Source: Pedobacter sp. ASV28
GTDB lineage: Bacteria > Bacteroidota > Bacteroidia > Sphingobacteriales > Sphingobacteriaceae
Assembly: GCF_016428855.1 (NCBI RefSeq)
Contig: NZ_JAELTN010000020.1
Location: forward strand, 1 to 64,000
Reading direction: 5' to 3'
Length of the DNA: 64,000 nucleotides
Positions 7,707 through 54,634 of the stretch are shown one piece after another (within the stretch, counting starts at the first letter, position 1; every line of letters starts with the position of its first letter). The notes under the pieces are model-generated. The model had not been told where the DNA came from. It made no database searches and worked only from the letters and a program-made list of their open reading frames with translations. The position numbers and the translations under genes were made by a program.

Positions 7707-7770
7707 GTAGATTTTTGAAACGATAATAAAACTTATTTTTAGAAAAGCAAATCTCTACACCAAACAAAGC

Positions 7771-7836
7771 CAGTCCCGCTTTACGCTACAATTCCCGATA
7801 AAATCGGGATATTTTTGCTGCAATCGGGTTTATTTT
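7771..7836 (-). repeat. Intergenic repeat with CCCGAT/ATCGGG hairpin, copy 1
   Basis: Contains CAGTCCCGCTTTACGC, then a 7-bp inverted repeat TCCCGAT (7793-7799) / ATCGGGA (7803-7809), then CAATCGGGTTTA. Its reverse complement runs parallel to the sequence at 34032-34088: AAACCCGATTG, hairpin, then AAGCGGGACT in the same order. Part of the 560-bp gene-free stretch 7614-8173. Confidence 0.7.
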
Positions 7837-7934
7837 ACATAAACCTATACTACAATCTCGGTCTAAATAGCAATAACTCTAATTATATTAAACGGGATTG
7901 AAGTGGAAATACTTTTTGATGTTTCAATCATTTG

Positions 7935-7966
7935 AAACTTCGTAAGTTTTTAAACTTACGAAGTTT
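7935..7966. repeat. Nested palindrome, 15-bp perfect inverted repeat
   Basis: AAACTTCGTAAGTTT (7935-7949), 2-nt centre, AAACTTACGAAGTTT (7952-7966). Each arm is itself nearly palindromic (AAACTT CGT AAGTTT), so the element can fold as one long hairpin or as two small ones. No T run and no gene end close by, so probably not a simple terminator. Confidence 0.75.
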
Positions 7967-8118
7967 ATTGTTAACCTTGCTTTCACAAAAAGATTCTAAC
8001 GAAAAGCCCGACTAACAATAAAAATTGCTTGTCCCTTTGCTTTTGAAAAACTAAAACCTTACCACACCCAAACCTTCCAACAATTTAGCAATTAAACGAT
8101 AGCTTCATTTGTTAAAAA

Positions 8119-15405: not shown

Positions 15406-16794
15406 ATGAACTACGATTTAATTGTTATAGGTAGCGGTCCAGGTGGATATGTTACTGCCATACGAGCTTCGCAATTGGGCTTAAAAACCGCAATTGTAGA
15501 ACGCGAATCTTTAGGTGGAATATGCCTTAACTGGGGCTGTATACCTACTAAAGCGTTATTAAAGAGTGCACAAGTATTCGATTATATCAACCATGCGGCT
15601 GATTACGGTATCACAACCTCAGCGGCCAAGGTGGATTTTGATGCCGTGATCAAGCGTAGTCGCGGTGTAGCCGATGGCATGAGCAAAGGTGTTCAGTTCT
15701 TAATGAAAAAGAACAAAATAGACGTGATTATGGGTTCTGGCAAAGTAAAACCAGGAAACAAAGTTGAAGTTAAAGGTGCTGATGGTTCACAAAAAGAACT
15801 AACAGCTAAAAATATTGTAATTGCTACTGGTGCTCGCTCTAGAGAATTACCCAATTTAAAGCAAGATGGCAAAAAAGTGATTGGCTATCGTCAAGCCATG
15901 GTATTACCTCAACAACCAAAATCGATGGTGGTGGTAGGCTCTGGCGCTATTGGTGTTGAGTTTGCGTACTTCTATGCAACCATGGGTACCAAAGTTACCA
16001 TTGTAGAATTTATGGAAAACGTTGTCCCGGTAGAAGATGAAGACGTATCAAAACAATTGCTACGTAGCTTGAAGAAAACTGGCATAGAAATCATGACTTC
16101 TTCTAGCGTTGAGTCTGTGGATACGAGTGGTACAGGTTGCAAAGTACAGGTTAAAACTGCCAGTGGTATACAAACTATCGAATGTGACATTGTACTTTCT
16201 GCTGCTGGTGTTGTGGCTAACATCGAAAATATTGGCCTTGAAGAAGTAGGCATTAAAACTGATAAAGGCAAAATTGTTGTCGACGAATATTATAATACCT
16301 CAGTAAAAGGATATTACGCTATCGGCGATGTGGTGCCTGGTCAATCCCTAGCTCACGTTGCTTCTGCAGAAGGTATCATTTGCGTTGAAAAGATTGCAGG
16401 CTTACACGTAGAACCTTTAGACTATAATAACATTCCGGGTTGTACTTACTGCTCTCCAGAAATTGCCTCCGTAGGTTATACCGAAAAAGCGGCCAAAGCG
16501 GCTGGTTACGAACTGAAGATCGGAAAATTCCCATTCTCTGCCTCTGGTAAAGCAAGTGCTGCTGGTGCCAAAGATGGTTTCGTAAAACTGATTTTCGATG
16601 CTAAATATGGAGAGCTGCTTGGCGCACATATGATTGGTGCCAATGTAACCGAAATGATTGCCGAGATTGTAGTGGCCCGCAAACTGGAAACCACTGGCCA
16701 TGAAATGATCAAGTCTGTACACCCGCATCCAACCATGAGCGAAGCGATTATGGAGGCTGCAGCTGATGCATACGGAGAAGTCATACACTTATAA
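15406..16794 (+). CDS. lpdA: Dihydrolipoyl dehydrogenase (E3)
   Basis: FAD flavoprotein that reoxidises dihydrolipoamide with NAD+ in the pyruvate, 2-oxoglutarate and branched-chain dehydrogenase complexes and in glycine cleavage. Shows the FAD-binding GSGPGGYVTAIRASQLG at the N-terminus, the redox disulfide in GGICLNWGCIPTK (about residues 40-52), the NAD-binding VVVGSGAIGVEFAYF, a second FAD motif YAIGDV, and the C-terminal active-site HPHPTMSEA. Length 462 is typical. No E1 or E2 gene is adjacent, so the E3 is probably shared among complexes. A perfect 14-bp stem terminator follows. Confidence 0.95.
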   Translation: MNYDLIVIGSGPGGYVTAIRASQLGLKTAIVERESLGGICLNWGCIPTKALLKSAQVFDYINHAADYGITTSAAKVDFDAVIKRSRGVADGMSKGVQFLMKKNKIDVIMGSGKVKPGNKVEVKGADGSQKELTAKNIVIATGARSRELPNLKQDGKKVIGYRQAMVLPQQPKSMVVVGSGAIGVEFAYFYATMGTKVTIVEFMENVVPVEDEDVSKQLLRSLKKTGIEIMTSSSVESVDTSGTGCKVQVKTASGIQTIECDIVLSAAGVVANIENIGLEEVGIKTDKGKIVVDEYYNTSVKGYYAIGDVVPGQSLAHVASAEGIICVEKIAGLHVEPLDYNNIPGCTYCSPEIASVGYTEKAAKAAGYELKIGKFPFSASGKASAAGAKDGFVKLIFDAKYGELLGAHMIGANVTEMIAEIVVARKLETTGHEMIKSVHPHPTMSEAIMEAAADAYGEVIHL

Positions 16795-38153: not shown

Positions 38154-39515
38154 ATTCTTCTTGTTCAAATTGAAAGAAACCACAAATGTACTTCCCATAG
38201 CCTCATTTGCCTCGTACCATATCCTACCCCCTTGTAGTTCTACAAATTCTTTGCACAGCAGGAGCCCCAAGCCAACTCCTTTTTCATTATTGGTGCCAAA
38301 TGTAGACAAAGCCCTAAGTTTAAAAAGGCTATCTTGCTCTATCTTAGTAATACCTAACCCATTATCTTTAACTTTAATAAAACAGGTCTCCATATTTTTT
38401 TCTGTATAAATCCATACTTTCCCACCTTCTGGCGTAAACTTAATGGCATTGTTCACCAAGTTTCGAATTACAATTTGGAACATATTCAAATCGGCCTCTA
38501 TCAGCAGTTCATCTTCAGCATCTATCTGGATATCAATTTTCTTTTTTAGGGCAATATTTGTTTCCAGACTCAGACCTTTCATCAGCTCTCCTTTCACATT
38601 GACAGGCACCAGATCAACCCTGGCCCCATCCAACTGCGACTTAGACCAGGCCAGCACATTTGCCAACATTTCAGACGTATCTTTGGTCACTTGGAGCAAC
38701 CGATGTTTAATCTGTTTATTTTCCTGCTCTGTCATATCTGTTTCTGCCAACACTTCCAAATAACCAAGAATAGAACTTAATGGCGATCTAATATCATGCG
38801 CTACAATAGAAAATAACTTGGCTTTCTCCGAGTTTAGCTTTTCCAGCTCCCTATTTTGCTCCAAGATCTTAAAGCTCTGTTCCTGTATCTCCATATTTTT
38901 TTGGAACACAATCTTTCGCTCATGGTCATAATTACGCCTGATAAAACTGATGGTAAAATAAATCAGCAGCGCAGCTACAAAATAAGTTACGGCAAAATCT
39001 ATTGTTTTAGACAGGCTACTCGTGTAGGCATTTGGAATGACATTGGGATAAAGGTGCTCAAAGGTCAAAACACCAAACACAATAACCAGGTTAAAGGGAA
39101 TCCAGATTTTAAATTGCTCTTTGGGAACCACCACCACGGTAATGAGCAACACTAGGCAAAACAACACCAGATTAGGGCCAAAAATTCCCGAATTATAAAA
39201 ATAATTAAGAAGGAAGGTCAGGTTGGCCACAATTCCCAATGCGTAGATGGCAAGTGTGGTTTTTCTCTTATATCTTGACAAATAATAAAGCATAGCAGAG
39301 AAAGCTGTACCAAAAACACAAATCAAGGCCACGGTTTTTAATCCTATATAATAATTAAAGGGGATCTCTAAAAACAGTGCTACAATAGCAATGACACAAA
39401 AAGTATTAAAAATTCTTTCTTCTAATGAAAATTTTTGCGGATTGCCAATAATAAAATTACCACTTAACCACTTACTTAATTTTGCCACAAAATAATTCCG
39501 GATAATAATGAACAA
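38148..39515 (-). CDS. Membrane sensor histidine kinase
   Basis: 455 residues: about six membrane helices in residues 30-195, a coiled-coil linker (EIQEQSFKILEQNRELEKLN), HisKA with FSIVAHDIRSPLSSILGYLEVL (about 235), then HATPase_c with IRNLVNNAIKFTP, DNGLGI and GVGLGLLLCKEF. The sensor region is a bare multi-helix membrane domain (7TMR-like in appearance), so the signal is likely sensed in the membrane. Orphan; no response regulator nearby. Convergent with the GAF kinase and overlapping it by 6 bp. Confidence 0.9.
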   Translation of the reverse strand: MFIIIRNYFVAKLSKWLSGNFIIGNPQKFSLEERIFNTFCVIAIVALFLEIPFNYYIGLKTVALICVFGTAFSAMLYYLSRYKRKTTLAIYALGIVANLTFLLNYFYNSGIFGPNLVLFCLVLLITVVVVPKEQFKIWIPFNLVIVFGVLTFEHLYPNVIPNAYTSSLSKTIDFAVTYFVAALLIYFTISFIRRNYDHERKIVFQKNMEIQEQSFKILEQNRELEKLNSEKAKLFSIVAHDIRSPLSSILGYLEVLAETDMTEQENKQIKHRLLQVTKDTSEMLANVLAWSKSQLDGARVDLVPVNVKGELMKGLSLETNIALKKKIDIQIDAEDELLIEADLNMFQIVIRNLVNNAIKFTPEGGKVWIYTEKNMETCFIKVKDNGLGITKIEQDSLFKLRALSTFGTNNEKGVGLGLLLCKEFVELQGGRIWYEANEAMGSTFVVSFNLNKKNL

Positions 39516-50571: not shown

Positions 50572-51342
50572 TTAAACGCTAAATTGTACCATAAATTCCT
50601 TAATACTTCCCTCTAAATCATCTTGCTTCAAATTCTTTACAAAGGCACTCCCAATAATGGCACCGCTAGCATATTTATTGGCCGAATCATAGGTAGCTTT
50701 ATCAGAAATACCAAAGCCAATCATGAAAGGATTTTTCAGTTCCATGTCTGCGATACGCTTAAAGTAGTCGCTAGATTGGGTGGAAAGGGCCAAATTGCTC
50801 CCAGTGGTAGCCGAAGAAGATACCAGATAGATGAATGCATTACTTAGCGCATCGATTTTTCGAATGCGTTCTTCGGAAGTTTGCGGTGTGACCAAGAAAA
50901 TATTGCTCAGCTCATATTTTTCGAAGACAGGTTGATACAGCTCTTCATATTCATACATGGGCAAATCTGGGATGATGCAACCGTCTACACCTACTTCCCT
51001 ACATTTTTTGCAGAACTCTTCTACACCATACTGTAGCACCACATTCACATAGCCCATTAATAAAATTGGGATGGTGACCTTTTGGCGCAGGTCTTTTAAT
51101 TGTTCGAATAACAAGTGTAAAGTCATTCCACCATCTAAAGCTTGTTTGCTACTCGCCTGTATCACCGGCCCATCTGCCACTGGATCTGAGTAAGGAAACC
51201 CAATTTCTAGGAAATTAGCACCGTTTTGCTCTAAAGTTTCGGCAATCTTTAAAGTATCACCTAAATTCGGATAACCTGCCGTGTAATATATAGAAAGTAA
51301 ATCTTTCTGTTGTTTTTGAAATAATTGTTGAAGTCTGTTCAT
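50572..51342 (-). CDS. trpA: Tryptophan synthase alpha subunit
   Basis: Cleaves indole-3-glycerol phosphate to indole, handed to the beta subunit. 256 residues, TIM barrel. Catalytic Glu and Asp in FLEIGFPYSDPVADGPVIQAS (about 46-66), substrate loop and phosphate site in GFGISDK and SGAIIGSAFVK. Last gene of the trpDFBA operon on the minus strand; gap of 77 bp after trpB. Confidence 0.96.
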   Translation of the reverse strand: MNRLQQLFQKQQKDLLSIYYTAGYPNLGDTLKIAETLEQNGANFLEIGFPYSDPVADGPVIQASSKQALDGGMTLHLLFEQLKDLRQKVTIPILLMGYVNVVLQYGVEEFCKKCREVGVDGCIIPDLPMYEYEELYQPVFEKYELSNIFLVTPQTSEERIRKIDALSNAFIYLVSSSATTGSNLALSTQSSDYFKRIADMELKNPFMIGFGISDKATYDSANKYASGAIIGSAFVKNLKQDDLEGSIKEFMVQFSV

Positions 51343-51419: not shown

Positions 51420-52601
51420 CTAAAGATTAAAATATTTCATATAAGTTTCCATGTCCTTATCGCCTCTTCCCGAAAGACAAACTACTACATTTTCACCACC
51501 TTTAAATTCCATTTTTTCAAGGTAAGCCAGAGCATGGGCACTTTCTATAGCAGGAATAATCCCTTCATATTGTGTCAGCAATAAACCAGCATTTAAAGAT
51601 TCATCGTCAGTAATAGACACATATTTCCCTCGCCCAGTTTTAAACAAATGTGCATGTTGTGGACCAATACCTGGATAATCTAAACCTGCAGAAACAGAAT
51701 GTGGCTCTACTACTTGGCCGTCTTCTGTCTGCATTAAGATACTTCTGCTACCATGCAACACCCCTTCTTTGCCCAAAGTTGTAGTAGCGGCAGAAAACCC
51801 ACTGTCAACGCCCCTGCCGGCTGCTTCCACAGCAATCAGTCTTACACTTTGATCATCAATAAAATGGTAAAACATCCCCATGGCATTGCTTCCCCCACCT
51901 ACACAGGCCAAGACATAATCGGGCAGTTCGTTCCCGGTTTGTTCTTTCAATTGCTTCTTGGTTTCAAAGGAAATGATAGATTGAAACTGTGCCACCATAT
52001 CTGGATAGGGATGGGGACCAACTACCGAGCCTATAATATAATGTGTATCTACGGGATTATTAATCCAGTCTCTCATGGCCTCATTAGTGGCATCTTTTAA
52101 AGTCTTACTACCAGAAGTAGCTGCAACTACTTTAGCGCCCAACATTTTCATACGAGCTACGTTGGGTGCCTGACGTTTAATATCCACCTCTCCCATATAT
52201 ACTACACATTCTAAACCACGCAAAGCGCAAACCGTAGCGGTTGCCACACCATGTTGGCCAGCACCAGTTTCTGCGATGATGCGCTTTTTACCTAGTTTTT
52301 CTGCCAATAAAATTTGCCCAATGGTATTATTGATTTTATGTGCGCCAGTATGGTTAAGGTCTTCTCTTTTCAGAAAGATATTTGCCCCGTATTTTTCCGA
52401 TAGCCGTTTGGCCAAATATAGGGGCGAAGGTCTGCCCACATAATCTTTTAATAAGGCCTTAAACTCTTTTTTAAATTGCTCATCATCAATGATACGCTGA
52501 TATTGTTGTCTAAGTTCTTCTACATTTGGATACAGCATTTCGGGGATGTAAGCACCTCCAAAATCACCATAATAACCTCTTTCGTCTACAAAGTAATTCA
52601 T
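51420..52601 (-). CDS. trpB: Tryptophan synthase beta subunit
   Basis: PLP-dependent condensation of indole with serine to tryptophan. 393 residues. PLP-binding Lys in [16 protein letters not shown] (about residues 80-95), substrate loop [18 protein letters not shown], phosphate-binding [13 protein letters not shown], and a Na/K site region [13 protein letters not shown]. Length and start [21 protein letters not shown] are standard. Located between trpF and trpA. Confidence 0.97.
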
Positions 52602-52673: not shown

Positions 52674-53300
52674 TTAATTATTTAAATCATCAAAAAAAAA
52701 TTTCAATTTCTCTACATCTTTCAAGCCAGGCTCAAGTTCAAACTTGCTGTTAACATCTACCGCATAAAGTCTATCGTCTTTTATCTCTTTAATTTGTTCT
52801 GTGTGATTTAAATCTATTCCGCCACTTAAGAAATAAGGCTTAGCCAGCTCGTACTTTTCAAGTAAATTCCAATCGAATACCTTACCCGAACCACCGTGCA
52901 CTGGAGTTTGCGTATCGAACAAGAAATAATCTACCACTGGCAAATAAACCTCCAATTGGTTAAAATCAAAATCGGTGGAAATACCGAAAGCTTTGATCAC
53001 TTCTACACCTAAACCTTTTACTTCTCGACAATAATCCACATCTTCTGAACCATGTAACTGCACTGCCTTTAAGTGATTTTTTGAAACCGTGACCTTTACA
53101 TTTTCTAAGGTATCGTTAACAAAAACGCCCACTGTCTTAATATCTTGGGGTACGTATTTGATCAGTTCGGCAGCAACTTCACTGATATATCGAGGTGATT
53201 TCACATAAAAAATAAAGCCCATGTAGTCTGGACGTAAATTTGCCACCACAGCAATATTGGCTGCATGTTTCATTCCGCAAACTTTTATTTTTAATTTCAT
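52674..53300 (-). CDS. trpF: Phosphoribosylanthranilate isomerase
   Basis: Third dedicated step of tryptophan synthesis: Amadori rearrangement of PRA to CdRP. 208 residues, TIM barrel. Starts KIKVCGMKHAANIAVVANL with the catalytic Cys; catalytic Asp in VDYFLFDTQTPVHGGSGKVFDW; end LYAVDVNSKFELEPGLKDVEKL contains the usual VDVNSxFE. The frame runs to 53333, but the extra codons (MFLAMTTEKKV) are made from a repeat element, so ATG 53300 is the start. Lies between trpD and trpB; trpC is absent from its usual place. Confidence 0.93.
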   Translation of the reverse strand: MKLKIKVCGMKHAANIAVVANLRPDYMGFIFYVKSPRYISEVAAELIKYVPQDIKTVGVFVNDTLENVKVTVSKNHLKAVQLHGSEDVDYCREVKGLGVEVIKAFGISTDFDFNQLEVYLPVVDYFLFDTQTPVHGGSGKVFDWNLLEKYELAKPYFLSGGIDLNHTEQIKEIKDDRLYAVDVNSKFELEPGLKDVEKLKFFFDDLNN

Positions 53301-53314
53301 TACTTTTTTTTCGG

Positions 53315-53467
53315 TCGTCATTGCAAGGAACAAAACAATCTTACCACACTTTGTCCTTCCTAAGTTAGGAGGAATCTGTAAGTTTAATAATTGCTACTTA
53401 CCGATTCTTCACTCTGCTCAGAACGACAGAAAGAAAGATTGCTTCGTCGTTCCTCCTCGCAATGACG
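53315..53467. repeat. Long imperfect palindromic repeat between trpD and trpF
   Basis: Left arm at 53315-53342 (CGTCATTGCAAGGAAC ... ACAATCTT), right arm at 53435-53467 (AAGATTGCTTCGTCGTTCCT ... CGCAATGACG): matching but inverted, with a CACTCTGCTCAGAACGACAG block in the middle. REP/MITE-like, non-coding, inside the trp operon. Confidence 0.7.
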
Positions 53468-53469
53468 AA

Positions 53470-54459
53470 TTAACTGCCTACCAAACTCTTAAAACTATTT
53501 AATGCCTTTTTACTCACCAGCGACTCTTCTGCTTCATAATAACAATCTGCAAAGCTTGCCTCTTGCTTGATCGTTTGGATAGCCAAAGCCGCATTACACA
53601 ATACCACATTAGCTTGCGCATAAGTTGCACGACCATTTAAAACATCCATAAATATCTTTGCCGATGACTCTACGGTATCACCTCCCTGAATTTGCCTCTC
53701 TTCCAATTCTTCAAAACCCAGATCGGAAATATTCACTAAAGCTTCCCCTTTTTTACTGAAAGTTTTAAAGCTACAGGTGAGCGAAACTTCATCAAAGCCA
53801 TCTACTGCATGTACAATAGTATAATTCTTATCCGTTTGCTGATACAGATAAGCATAAATACGGGCCAATTCTAAACTAAAGACACCCACCATCTGGTTCT
53901 TTGGTCTTGCGGGGTTACACATTGGCCCCAACATGTTAAAAAAGGTTTTCACGCCCAGTTCCCTACGTATGGGCGCCACTGTTTTCATGGCAGGATTAAA
54001 CAAAGGGGCATGGATAAAACAAATACCCGCATGTTCCAAACTTTGTTTCAATTTGCTTTCATCATTGGTAAAAGTATAGCCCAGGTATTCTATTACATTA
54101 CTCGAACCACAGCCAGAAGAAACCCCATAATTACCATGTTTTGCCACTTTATAGCCTGCTCCGGCTACTACAAAAGAGGCCAAGGTTGAAATGTTAAAAG
54201 TGTCTTTTCCATCGCCACCGGTACCACAAAGATCTACCAGTTCAAAATCGGAAAAATCAACTTTCAGGCACAAATCCAGCATGGCGTCGCGAAAACCCTG
54301 CAACTCCTCTACAGTGATATTACGCATACCATAGGCCGTAATAAATGCGGCTATTTGCGAATGGTTAAATTCTCCCAGAGCGATAGCGGTCAATATCTTC
54401 TGTGCTTCTACACGACTAAAAGTTTTGTTTTCAAAAAGGTGGTTAAGTATCTTCTTCAT
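53470..54459 (-). CDS. trpD: Anthranilate phosphoribosyltransferase
   Basis: Transfers phosphoribosyl from PRPP to anthranilate. 329 residues, helical N-domain plus alpha/beta domain. PRPP motif DLCGTGGDGKDTFNIST (about 80-96), KHGNYGVSSGCGSSNVIEYLG, and the anthranilate-site HAPLFNPAMK. First gene of the operon after a trp-type attenuator: the terminator T-tract ends 5 nt before the ATG. trpE, trpG and trpC are not in this operon. Confidence 0.95.
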   Translation of the reverse strand: MKKILNHLFENKTFSRVEAQKILTAIALGEFNHSQIAAFITAYGMRNITVEELQGFRDAMLDLCLKVDFSDFELVDLCGTGGDGKDTFNISTLASFVVAGAGYKVAKHGNYGVSSGCGSSNVIEYLGYTFTNDESKLKQSLEHAGICFIHAPLFNPAMKTVAPIRRELGVKTFFNMLGPMCNPARPKNQMVGVFSLELARIYAYLYQQTDKNYTIVHAVDGFDEVSLTCSFKTFSKKGEALVNISDLGFEELEERQIQGGDTVESSAKIFMDVLNGRATYAQANVVLCNAALAIQTIKQEASFADCYYEAEESLVSKKALNSFKSLVGS

Positions 54460-54463
54460 GGGG

Positions 54464-54497
54464 TTAAAATAAAAAAGGTTGCCTCATCAGCAACCTT
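54464..54497 (-). terminator. Attenuator terminator in front of trpD
   Basis: Minus-strand stem AAGGTTGC (54497-54490), 7-nt loop, GCAACCTT (54482-54475), then a T-rich run to 54464. It is upstream of trpD rather than after a gene, so it must be a conditional leader terminator. Confidence 0.88.
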
Positions 54498-54584
54498 CTA
54501 AAATATTCTTATTAAAAAAATAAACGTACAAAAGGTCACATCACGCTATTGCGTTATGCCACCACCAAATTGTATTTACGTTTA
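54490..54584 (-). promoter_or_regulatory. trp leader alternative structures (antiterminator and its competitor)
   Basis: Segment 1 TAAACGTA (54584-54577, inside leader codons 4-6) is the exact reverse complement of segment 2b TACGTTTA (54528-54521). Segment 2a GTGACCTTTT (54539-54530) can pair over 10 nt (3 wobbles) with segment 3 AGAAGGTTGC (54499-54490), which is the left arm of the terminator. 1:2b encloses 2a, so 2a:3 and 1:2b would cross and exclude each other. A ribosome stalled at the Trp codons covers segment 1, freeing 2a to form the antiterminator. Logic inferred from base pairing. Confidence 0.7.
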
Positions 54585-54594
54585 CTTGTCTCAT
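54541..54594 (-). CDS. trpL: Trp leader peptide with three consecutive Trp codons
   Basis: 17-residue ORF MRQVNVNTIWWWHNAIA, stop TGA. Codons 10-12 are TGG TGG TGG. It starts about 9 nt after a promoter -7 box and ends about 45 nt before the attenuator stem. Trp is normally rare, so three in a row in a leader ORF before trpD is strong evidence for ribosome-mediated attenuation: low Trp-tRNA stalls the ribosome and lets transcription into trpDFBA continue. No clear Shine-Dalgarno, as usual in Bacteroidota. Confidence 0.88.
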   Translation of the reverse strand: MRQVNVNTIWWWHNAIA

Positions 54595-54602
54595 TCTGTA
54601 GG

Positions 54603-54634
54603 CAAATATGGAATTGTTTTTGCTTAAATGCAAA
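54603..54634 (-). promoter_or_regulatory. Promoter of the trpL-trpDFBA operon
   Basis: Minus strand TTTG (54634-54631), 20-nt spacer, CATATTTG (54610-54603; one mismatch to TAnnTTTG). The leader ATG is 8 nt downstream, so the leader transcript is about 138 nt to the trpD ATG. Confidence 0.75.

Follow-up and report, generated by a model that had tools for sequence, protein, structure and literature searches.

The window analysed here, a stretch of 64,000 nt from Pedobacter sp. ASV28, carries a tryptophan biosynthesis operon on its minus strand in the order trpD-F-B-A. Its first gene, trpD (53470..54459), encodes anthranilate phosphoribosyltransferase (PF00591 and PF02885) and is the sole PF00591 gene found in this genome. 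It is followed on the same strand by trpF (52674..53333; PF00697), trpB (51420..52601) and trpA (50572..51342; PF00290). The trpB gene matches PF00291, which is a broader family, and was named by sequence recognition together with its place between trpF and trpA. The spacer between trpD and trpF (53334-53469) contains a repeat-like frame (AQNDR...VVPPRNDE). Another contig of the genome holds a cluster of trpE, trpC and a glutamine amidotransferase gene regarded as trpG; hence, the trp pathway is split in two. A trp pathway distributed over several operons is likewise described for Sinorhizobium meliloti with its trpLE(G) operon (PMC7298713). The closest named relatives of the locus are mostly Pedobacter, with TrpD identities of up to 90%.

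Positions 54634 to 54460 of the minus strand, immediately before trpD, very probably form a tryptophan-sensing switch. The original prediction had read this region as a trp attenuator with a Bacteroidota promoter, a leader peptide, two competing helices and a terminator, and these parts were recovered with one small correction. The promoter (54603..54634, minus strand) has the form TTTG-N20-CATATTTG, with the TTTG at 54634-54631 and the -7 box at 54610-54603. The leader ORF (54541..54594, minus strand) encodes the 17 aa peptide MRQVNVNTIWWWHNAIA, ends with TGA and has TGG TGG TGG as codons 10-12 (54559..54567). Segment 1 (54578..54587) is located inside leader codons 3-6 and is paired in the minimum-energy fold with segment 2b (54518..54527), the 3′ side of the protector helix; the perfect 8 bp described earlier are contained in a 10-pair helix with one wobble. 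Segment 2a (54530..54539), the 5′ side of the antiterminator, follows immediately 3′ of the leader stop codon and forms 10 pairs, 3 of them wobbles, with segment 3 (54490..54499; row L002), as originally described. Segment 3 is at the same time the 3′ side of the antiterminator and the 5′ arm of the intrinsic terminator, which is completed by segment 4 (54483-54471) and a T tract (together 54466..54483, minus strand). The terminator was correctly placed before the trpD ATG (54459), but the spacing from the last T (54466) is 6 nt and not 5.

The motif TGGTGGTGG was observed at 3 sites in the window versus 0.33 expected and is, on its own, weak evidence. Its two further sites are at 15926-15934 (plus strand) and 39128-39136 (minus strand).

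The -7 box deviates at its first base from the consensus TAnnTTTG (PMC9723704), and the same CATATTTG is present in all 12 loci L002-L013. As noted in the original prediction, the leader ATG lies 8 nt from this box. In Flavobacterium psychrophilum, the -7 box is reported at positions -12 to -5 and leaderless mRNAs amount to 5.5% (PMC9723704). If this placement applies here, the 8 nt gap predicts a start site at about 54598 and a 5′ untranslated leader of 4 nt (54595..54598, minus strand). The gap is 5-8 nt in the 49 loci resembling the window leader (from here: own-like loci) that have a recognised box, predicting untranslated leaders of 1-4 nt; in a second group of relatives it is mostly 12-13 nt. 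Translation of the leader peptide from an almost leaderless transcript is therefore plausible, with a start site predicted from the promoter, and appears to be common to the relatives. The trpL ORF of S. meliloti is similarly located at the very 5′ end of its transcript, where it was mapped, whereas its counterpart here is predicted (PMC7298713). In four members of the Bacteroid-trp family (RF01692) from outside the Sphingobacteriaceae (L077, L079, L090 and L099), no more than 4-5 nt separate the leader ATG from the -7 box, so that these members would be leaderless or nearly so.

Conservation and covariation of the trpD leader

Conservation of the Trp codons and of the pairing segments had been proposed as a check, and the comparative data bear the claim out. 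A leader was found upstream of trpD, on the same strand and within 700 nt, in 36 of 36 genomes in the genus part of the draw from the family. In a separate named collection, mostly Pedobacter, trpD is preceded by a WWW leader ORF in all 80 loci. In 79 of these a T run follows the leader ORF, while the ORF and hairpin of L162 are accompanied by an interrupted T tract. Moreover, TGGTGGTGGCAYAAC occurs upstream of trpD in each of the 30 trpD loci retrieved by searching the family; the Trp runs of L020, L028 and L031 sit 475-492 nt upstream.

For wider searches, a model termed R1 was built on 30 trpD leaders, all of them from this genus. At E ≤ 0.001 it matches 177 of the 201 genomes of the family draw. 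Twenty of the 24 R1-negative genomes were examined, and 15 of them are without a TrpD match; the other five (G002, G008, G027, G032 and G044) have a TrpD match, weak in the case of G032, but yielded no leader.

As the terminator arms are displaced between subgroups in the MAFFT alignment of the own-like loci, base pairs were counted with anchored segments in 40 distinct own-like sequences, a set that leaves out L011 as well as L155, L166, L179 and L180, which did not fit the search patterns. Because most nucleotides of antiterminator pairs 1-6 are dictated by these patterns, the informative pairs are 7-10. Pair 7 of the antiterminator (2a:3) covaries, being C-G in 28 sequences, U-A in 12 and broken in none, while pairs 8, 9 and 10 are intact in 25, 23 and 19 of the 40. 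In the 1:2b helix, changes on both sides were seen in L008, L128 and L157; in some sequences of the set this helix is irregular, and segment 2b was chosen by best complementarity, a procedure biased towards pairing that leaves the register doubtful in several rows.

In many second-group relatives (L015-L018, L023-L025, L028 and L031), several hundred bases separate the terminator from trpD. These second-group spacers contain apparent inverted repeats of the type GGTTCGTG..CACGAACC.

Relation to Bacteroid-trp RNA

Bacteroid-trp was listed as a Bacteroidetes motif, RF01692, by Weinberg et al. in 2010 (PMC2864571), and its Rfam entry reads 'Bacteroidete tryptophan peptide leader RNA'. A 2019 paper placed Bacteroid-trp upstream of the F. 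psychrophilum trp operon and noted its similarity to the E. coli leader (PMC6414381), and a transcriptome study of 2021 reported strong hints of attenuation by leader peptides upstream of amino-acid operons in the same species (PMC9723704). Given the 2010 and 2019 publications, the novelty for Bacteroidota that the original prediction implied is not supported. Being a divergent member of a family of leader RNAs known since 2010, the trpD leader is well supported rather than surprising, and its novelty is modest. Our search found no paper joining tryptophan attenuation, leader peptide and Pedobacter; the survey of Lopatovskaya et al. 2010 may list such cases.

The window leader shares with RF01692 the phylum, a short leader ORF containing a run of Trp codons, a terminator and the location upstream of trp genes. 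It differs in the gene that follows, trpD here versus trpE (27) or trpB (3) in the 30 fetched RF01692 loci, in the sequences of its segments and in the gap between ATG and -7 box, 8 nt compared to mostly 16-23 nt. A different gene order, with the RF01692 leader followed by trpB and then trpE, was seen in L070, L075 and L096.

When scored with the Rfam model, the window copy aligns over the full length (1-131) at 23.7 bits, below the gathering cut-off of 49, with an E value of 1.8 in 301 bases and of 7.5 in the whole genome. In a scan of 13 loci, the sister leaders of 5 were matched over their full length, with scores (38.2-47.6 bits) that are likewise below the cut-off. Further RF01692 matches in the same genome, on contigs C91, C108 and C126 (23.4-25.7 bits), were taken as chance, as no Trp-run leader was present in the stretch inspected.

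The low score of the window copy would also fit an independently arisen ribosome-dependent attenuator that works in the same way and resembles Bacteroid-trp RNA in build only. The trpE leader of these bacteria, despite its different build, also weakly matches R1 (29 bits in L040), which indicates that a shared promoter, Trp codons and a terminator can raise scores by themselves. Convergence is nevertheless improbable in view of the reciprocal search, since R1 matches all 30 fetched RF01692 loci over the full length (E 9.9e-10 to 1.3e-4), yet in its own genome detects at E ≤ 0.001 the trpD leader only and neither the trpE nor the pheA leader. There are also intermediates such as L011 (MRTLMLNTNWWWHNNFC; 47.6 bits with RF01692), which resembles both L005 (MRTLNVNTIWWWHNAIA) and L070 (MRTILVNTYWWWHSVQLTRS). 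Homology to RF01692 is thus indicated by the reciprocal profile matches, on which the window leader was filed as a divergent member of that family in spite of its score below the curated cut-off.

Of 395 Bacteroidota genomes searched blind (the phylum draw), R1 matched 47, and in 25 of these the match coincides in place with an RF01692 match; 21 of the 46 RF01692 genomes were missed by R1, and 22 R1 genomes were not found by RF01692. Among the 11 Sphingobacteriaceae genomes in this draw, RF01692 (E ≤ 0.01) matched 5 and R1 (E ≤ 0.001) all 11, hence the Rfam Bacteroid-trp model falls short in this family.

In its 1:2, 2:3 and 3:4 logic and in the presence of Trp codons in the leader, the window leader is like the trp leader of E. 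coli (RF00513); this arrangement has been described (PMC6414381, PMC7298713). It is set apart by the other phylum and promoter, by its three Trp codons and by a start for which no Shine-Dalgarno-type sequence is expected. With the Trp_leader model RF00513 the window copy reached 27.2 bits at a cut-off of 41 (E 0.0011 in 301 bases) and is not a member.

In other phyla, trp genes use T-box, riboswitch or RNA-binding-protein elements. That such a Trp- or tRNA-binding element or an RNA-binding protein, and not a translating ribosome, controls the window operon is extremely improbable. This analysis yielded no evidence in its favour: no T-box or riboswitch reached the gathering score in the window, none is among the 18 matches to Rfam with E ≤ 10 between 54400 and 54700, the conservation is centred on the in-frame run of Trp codons, and the modelled switch described below requires a ribosome at or near these codons.

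Folding and the modelled switch

The leader folds with an energy z score of -4.68, and none of 200 shuffles was equally stable. Its antiterminator and terminator are mutually exclusive, and its protector helix includes leader codons, as in the functional class of ribosome-dependent attenuators. In folding with ribosome masks, the switch was seen in folds ending before segment 4, but hardly at full-length equilibrium. In the full-length folds the terminator won nearly always, even with a ribosome on the Trp codons, and its clearest dip was to 0.34 in L013. Since equilibrium folding does not discriminate in this situation, folds were stopped at the end of segment 3; the same dominance of the terminator means that the switch must be kinetic, acting during transcription.

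In this truncated-fold model, the ribosome footprint was barred from pairing, and the calculation was repeated with four footprints and three transcript ends. The probability of the antiterminator was 0.09-0.20 without a ribosome or with a ribosome at the stop codon. With Trp codons 10-12 in the A site it rose to 0.98-1.00 for the default footprint and was 0.89-1.00 over all four. A ribosome at codons 4-6 gave intermediate values of 0.52-0.73 and, with the smallest footprint, a ribosome at codon 16 also gave 0.97-0.99, so the model does not sharply single out the Trp codons, and the exact edge of the modelled switch depends on the footprint assumed. Another definition of the arms yielded 0.26 without ribosome, 0.26 at the stop codon and 0.89-0.91 at the Trp codons.

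Shuffling of the upstream part served as control. The contrast between ribosome positions observed for the window copy (L002), 0.64, was matched by none of 200 shuffles; the same holds for L012 and L017, while for L078 a single shuffle of 200 matched it. Taken by itself, the occupancy with a ribosome on the Trp codons was attained in 3 to 8 of 200 shuffles, hence only the contrast is distinctive.

The direction of the switch in the group means was the same in all three sets of loci. Mean occupancies without ribosome, at the stop codon and at the Trp codons were 0.42, 0.39 and 0.86-0.88 for 12 own-like loci, 0.32, 0.14 and 0.77 for 18 second-group loci, and 0.37, 0.39 and 0.64-0.71 for RF01692 loci (28 of 30, two not being callable). 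No clear contrast appeared in the truncated-fold model for L014, in which the terminator was mis-called, and for L070, L096 and L099.

Pairing of segment 2 with segment 3 was also compared between groups. For the own-like loci the mean was -12.0 kcal/mol with the cognate segment 3 versus -7.6 and -7.1 with those of the other groups, and for the second group -9.3 versus -8.1 and -5.9. In the RF01692 loci, the cognate combination (-6.8) compares with -9.2 and -7.0, their segment 2 pairing better with the own-like segment 3 than with their own. This argues against specificity, and a preference that is not cognate in RF01692 is a further point on the side of convergence.

Comparative and folding evidence together support the mechanism originally proposed for trpD. 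With a probability of about 0.93, the element is a ribosome-mediated transcription attenuator through which expression of trpD-F-B-A depends on charged tRNA-Trp and, at the same time, a divergent member of RF01692. We infer that ribosome and RNA polymerase are coupled and that read-through depends on tryptophan as follows. The ribosome would start on the leader ORF nearly at the 5′ end of the transcript. When charged Trp-tRNA is scarce, it would stall at codons 10-12 and cover segment 1, leaving segment 2a free for pairing with segment 3 ahead of the synthesis of segment 4, and RNA polymerase would enter trpD. With plentiful Trp-tRNA the ribosome would reach the stop codon and cover 2a, and the 3:4 terminator would form. 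It would form as well without translation, with segment 2 held in the 1:2 protector hairpin. The trpD leader offers a clean, testable attenuator in Pedobacter.

Leaders before trpE and pheA

The same genome contains a second Trp leader, located outside the window before trpE (L032, C75:70897-71072, minus strand), with the peptide MINKINTWHWRGNSKKSFVNVLCTL. Its peptide is of the type TWHWR/TWQWR and is followed by a terminator; between stop codon and terminator lies a strongly conserved, near-invariant unpaired stretch. A W-x-W leader precedes trpE in 30 of 30 fetched genus loci, L059 included. No Rfam family matched L032 at E ≤ 1. The model R2, built from 29 trpE leaders without that of L059, matches 135 of the 201 genomes of the family draw and 10 of the 395 in the phylum draw, all of them Sphingobacteriaceae. 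This leader is the less expected part of the system compared to the trpD leader. Its modelled switch is weaker than that of the trpD leader, with mean values (26 of 30 loci) of 0.50-0.52 at the W-x-W codons versus 0.11 without ribosome; the copy from this genome gave 0.45 at these codons, 0.07 without ribosome and 0.38 at the stop codon.

A Phe/Tyr-rich leader, MNFNTTYWFGYFYYFSKSQD, and a terminator are found before pheA (L035, C33:101812-101946, minus strand), also in this genome and outside the window; it scores 36.8 bits with RF01692. Its modelled behaviour is unlike that of the trp leaders, with 0.99 without ribosome, 0.03-0.26 at codons 16-20 and 0.38 at the stop codon. The 3′ end of this leader ORF repeats the sequence of the terminator 3′ arm and can therefore act as an antiterminator. 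Judging from these three leaders, leader-peptide control appears to be a general feature of the aromatic amino acid genes here.

Whereas only one of three trp operons is attenuated in S. meliloti (PMC7298713), both trp operons found here carry a Trp leader. We tentatively suggest, at somewhat less than even odds, that in this lineage of Sphingobacteriaceae the split pathway is governed by two attenuators of different build, WWWH before trpD-F-B-A and an unnamed TWHWR/TWQWR family before trpE-G-C, both being near-leaderless and thereby keeping the ribosome close to RNA polymerase in a phylum without reliance on Shine-Dalgarno pairing; each of the two may have its own Trp-tRNA level of response. 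The presence of two distinct Trp leaders in a single genome provides a useful case for studying leader-peptide control where mRNAs lack Shine-Dalgarno sequences.

Elsewhere in the window, two matches to Flavo-1 RNA (RF01705) lie close to each other on opposite strands, at 7768-7835 (minus strand) and 7886-8017 (plus strand).
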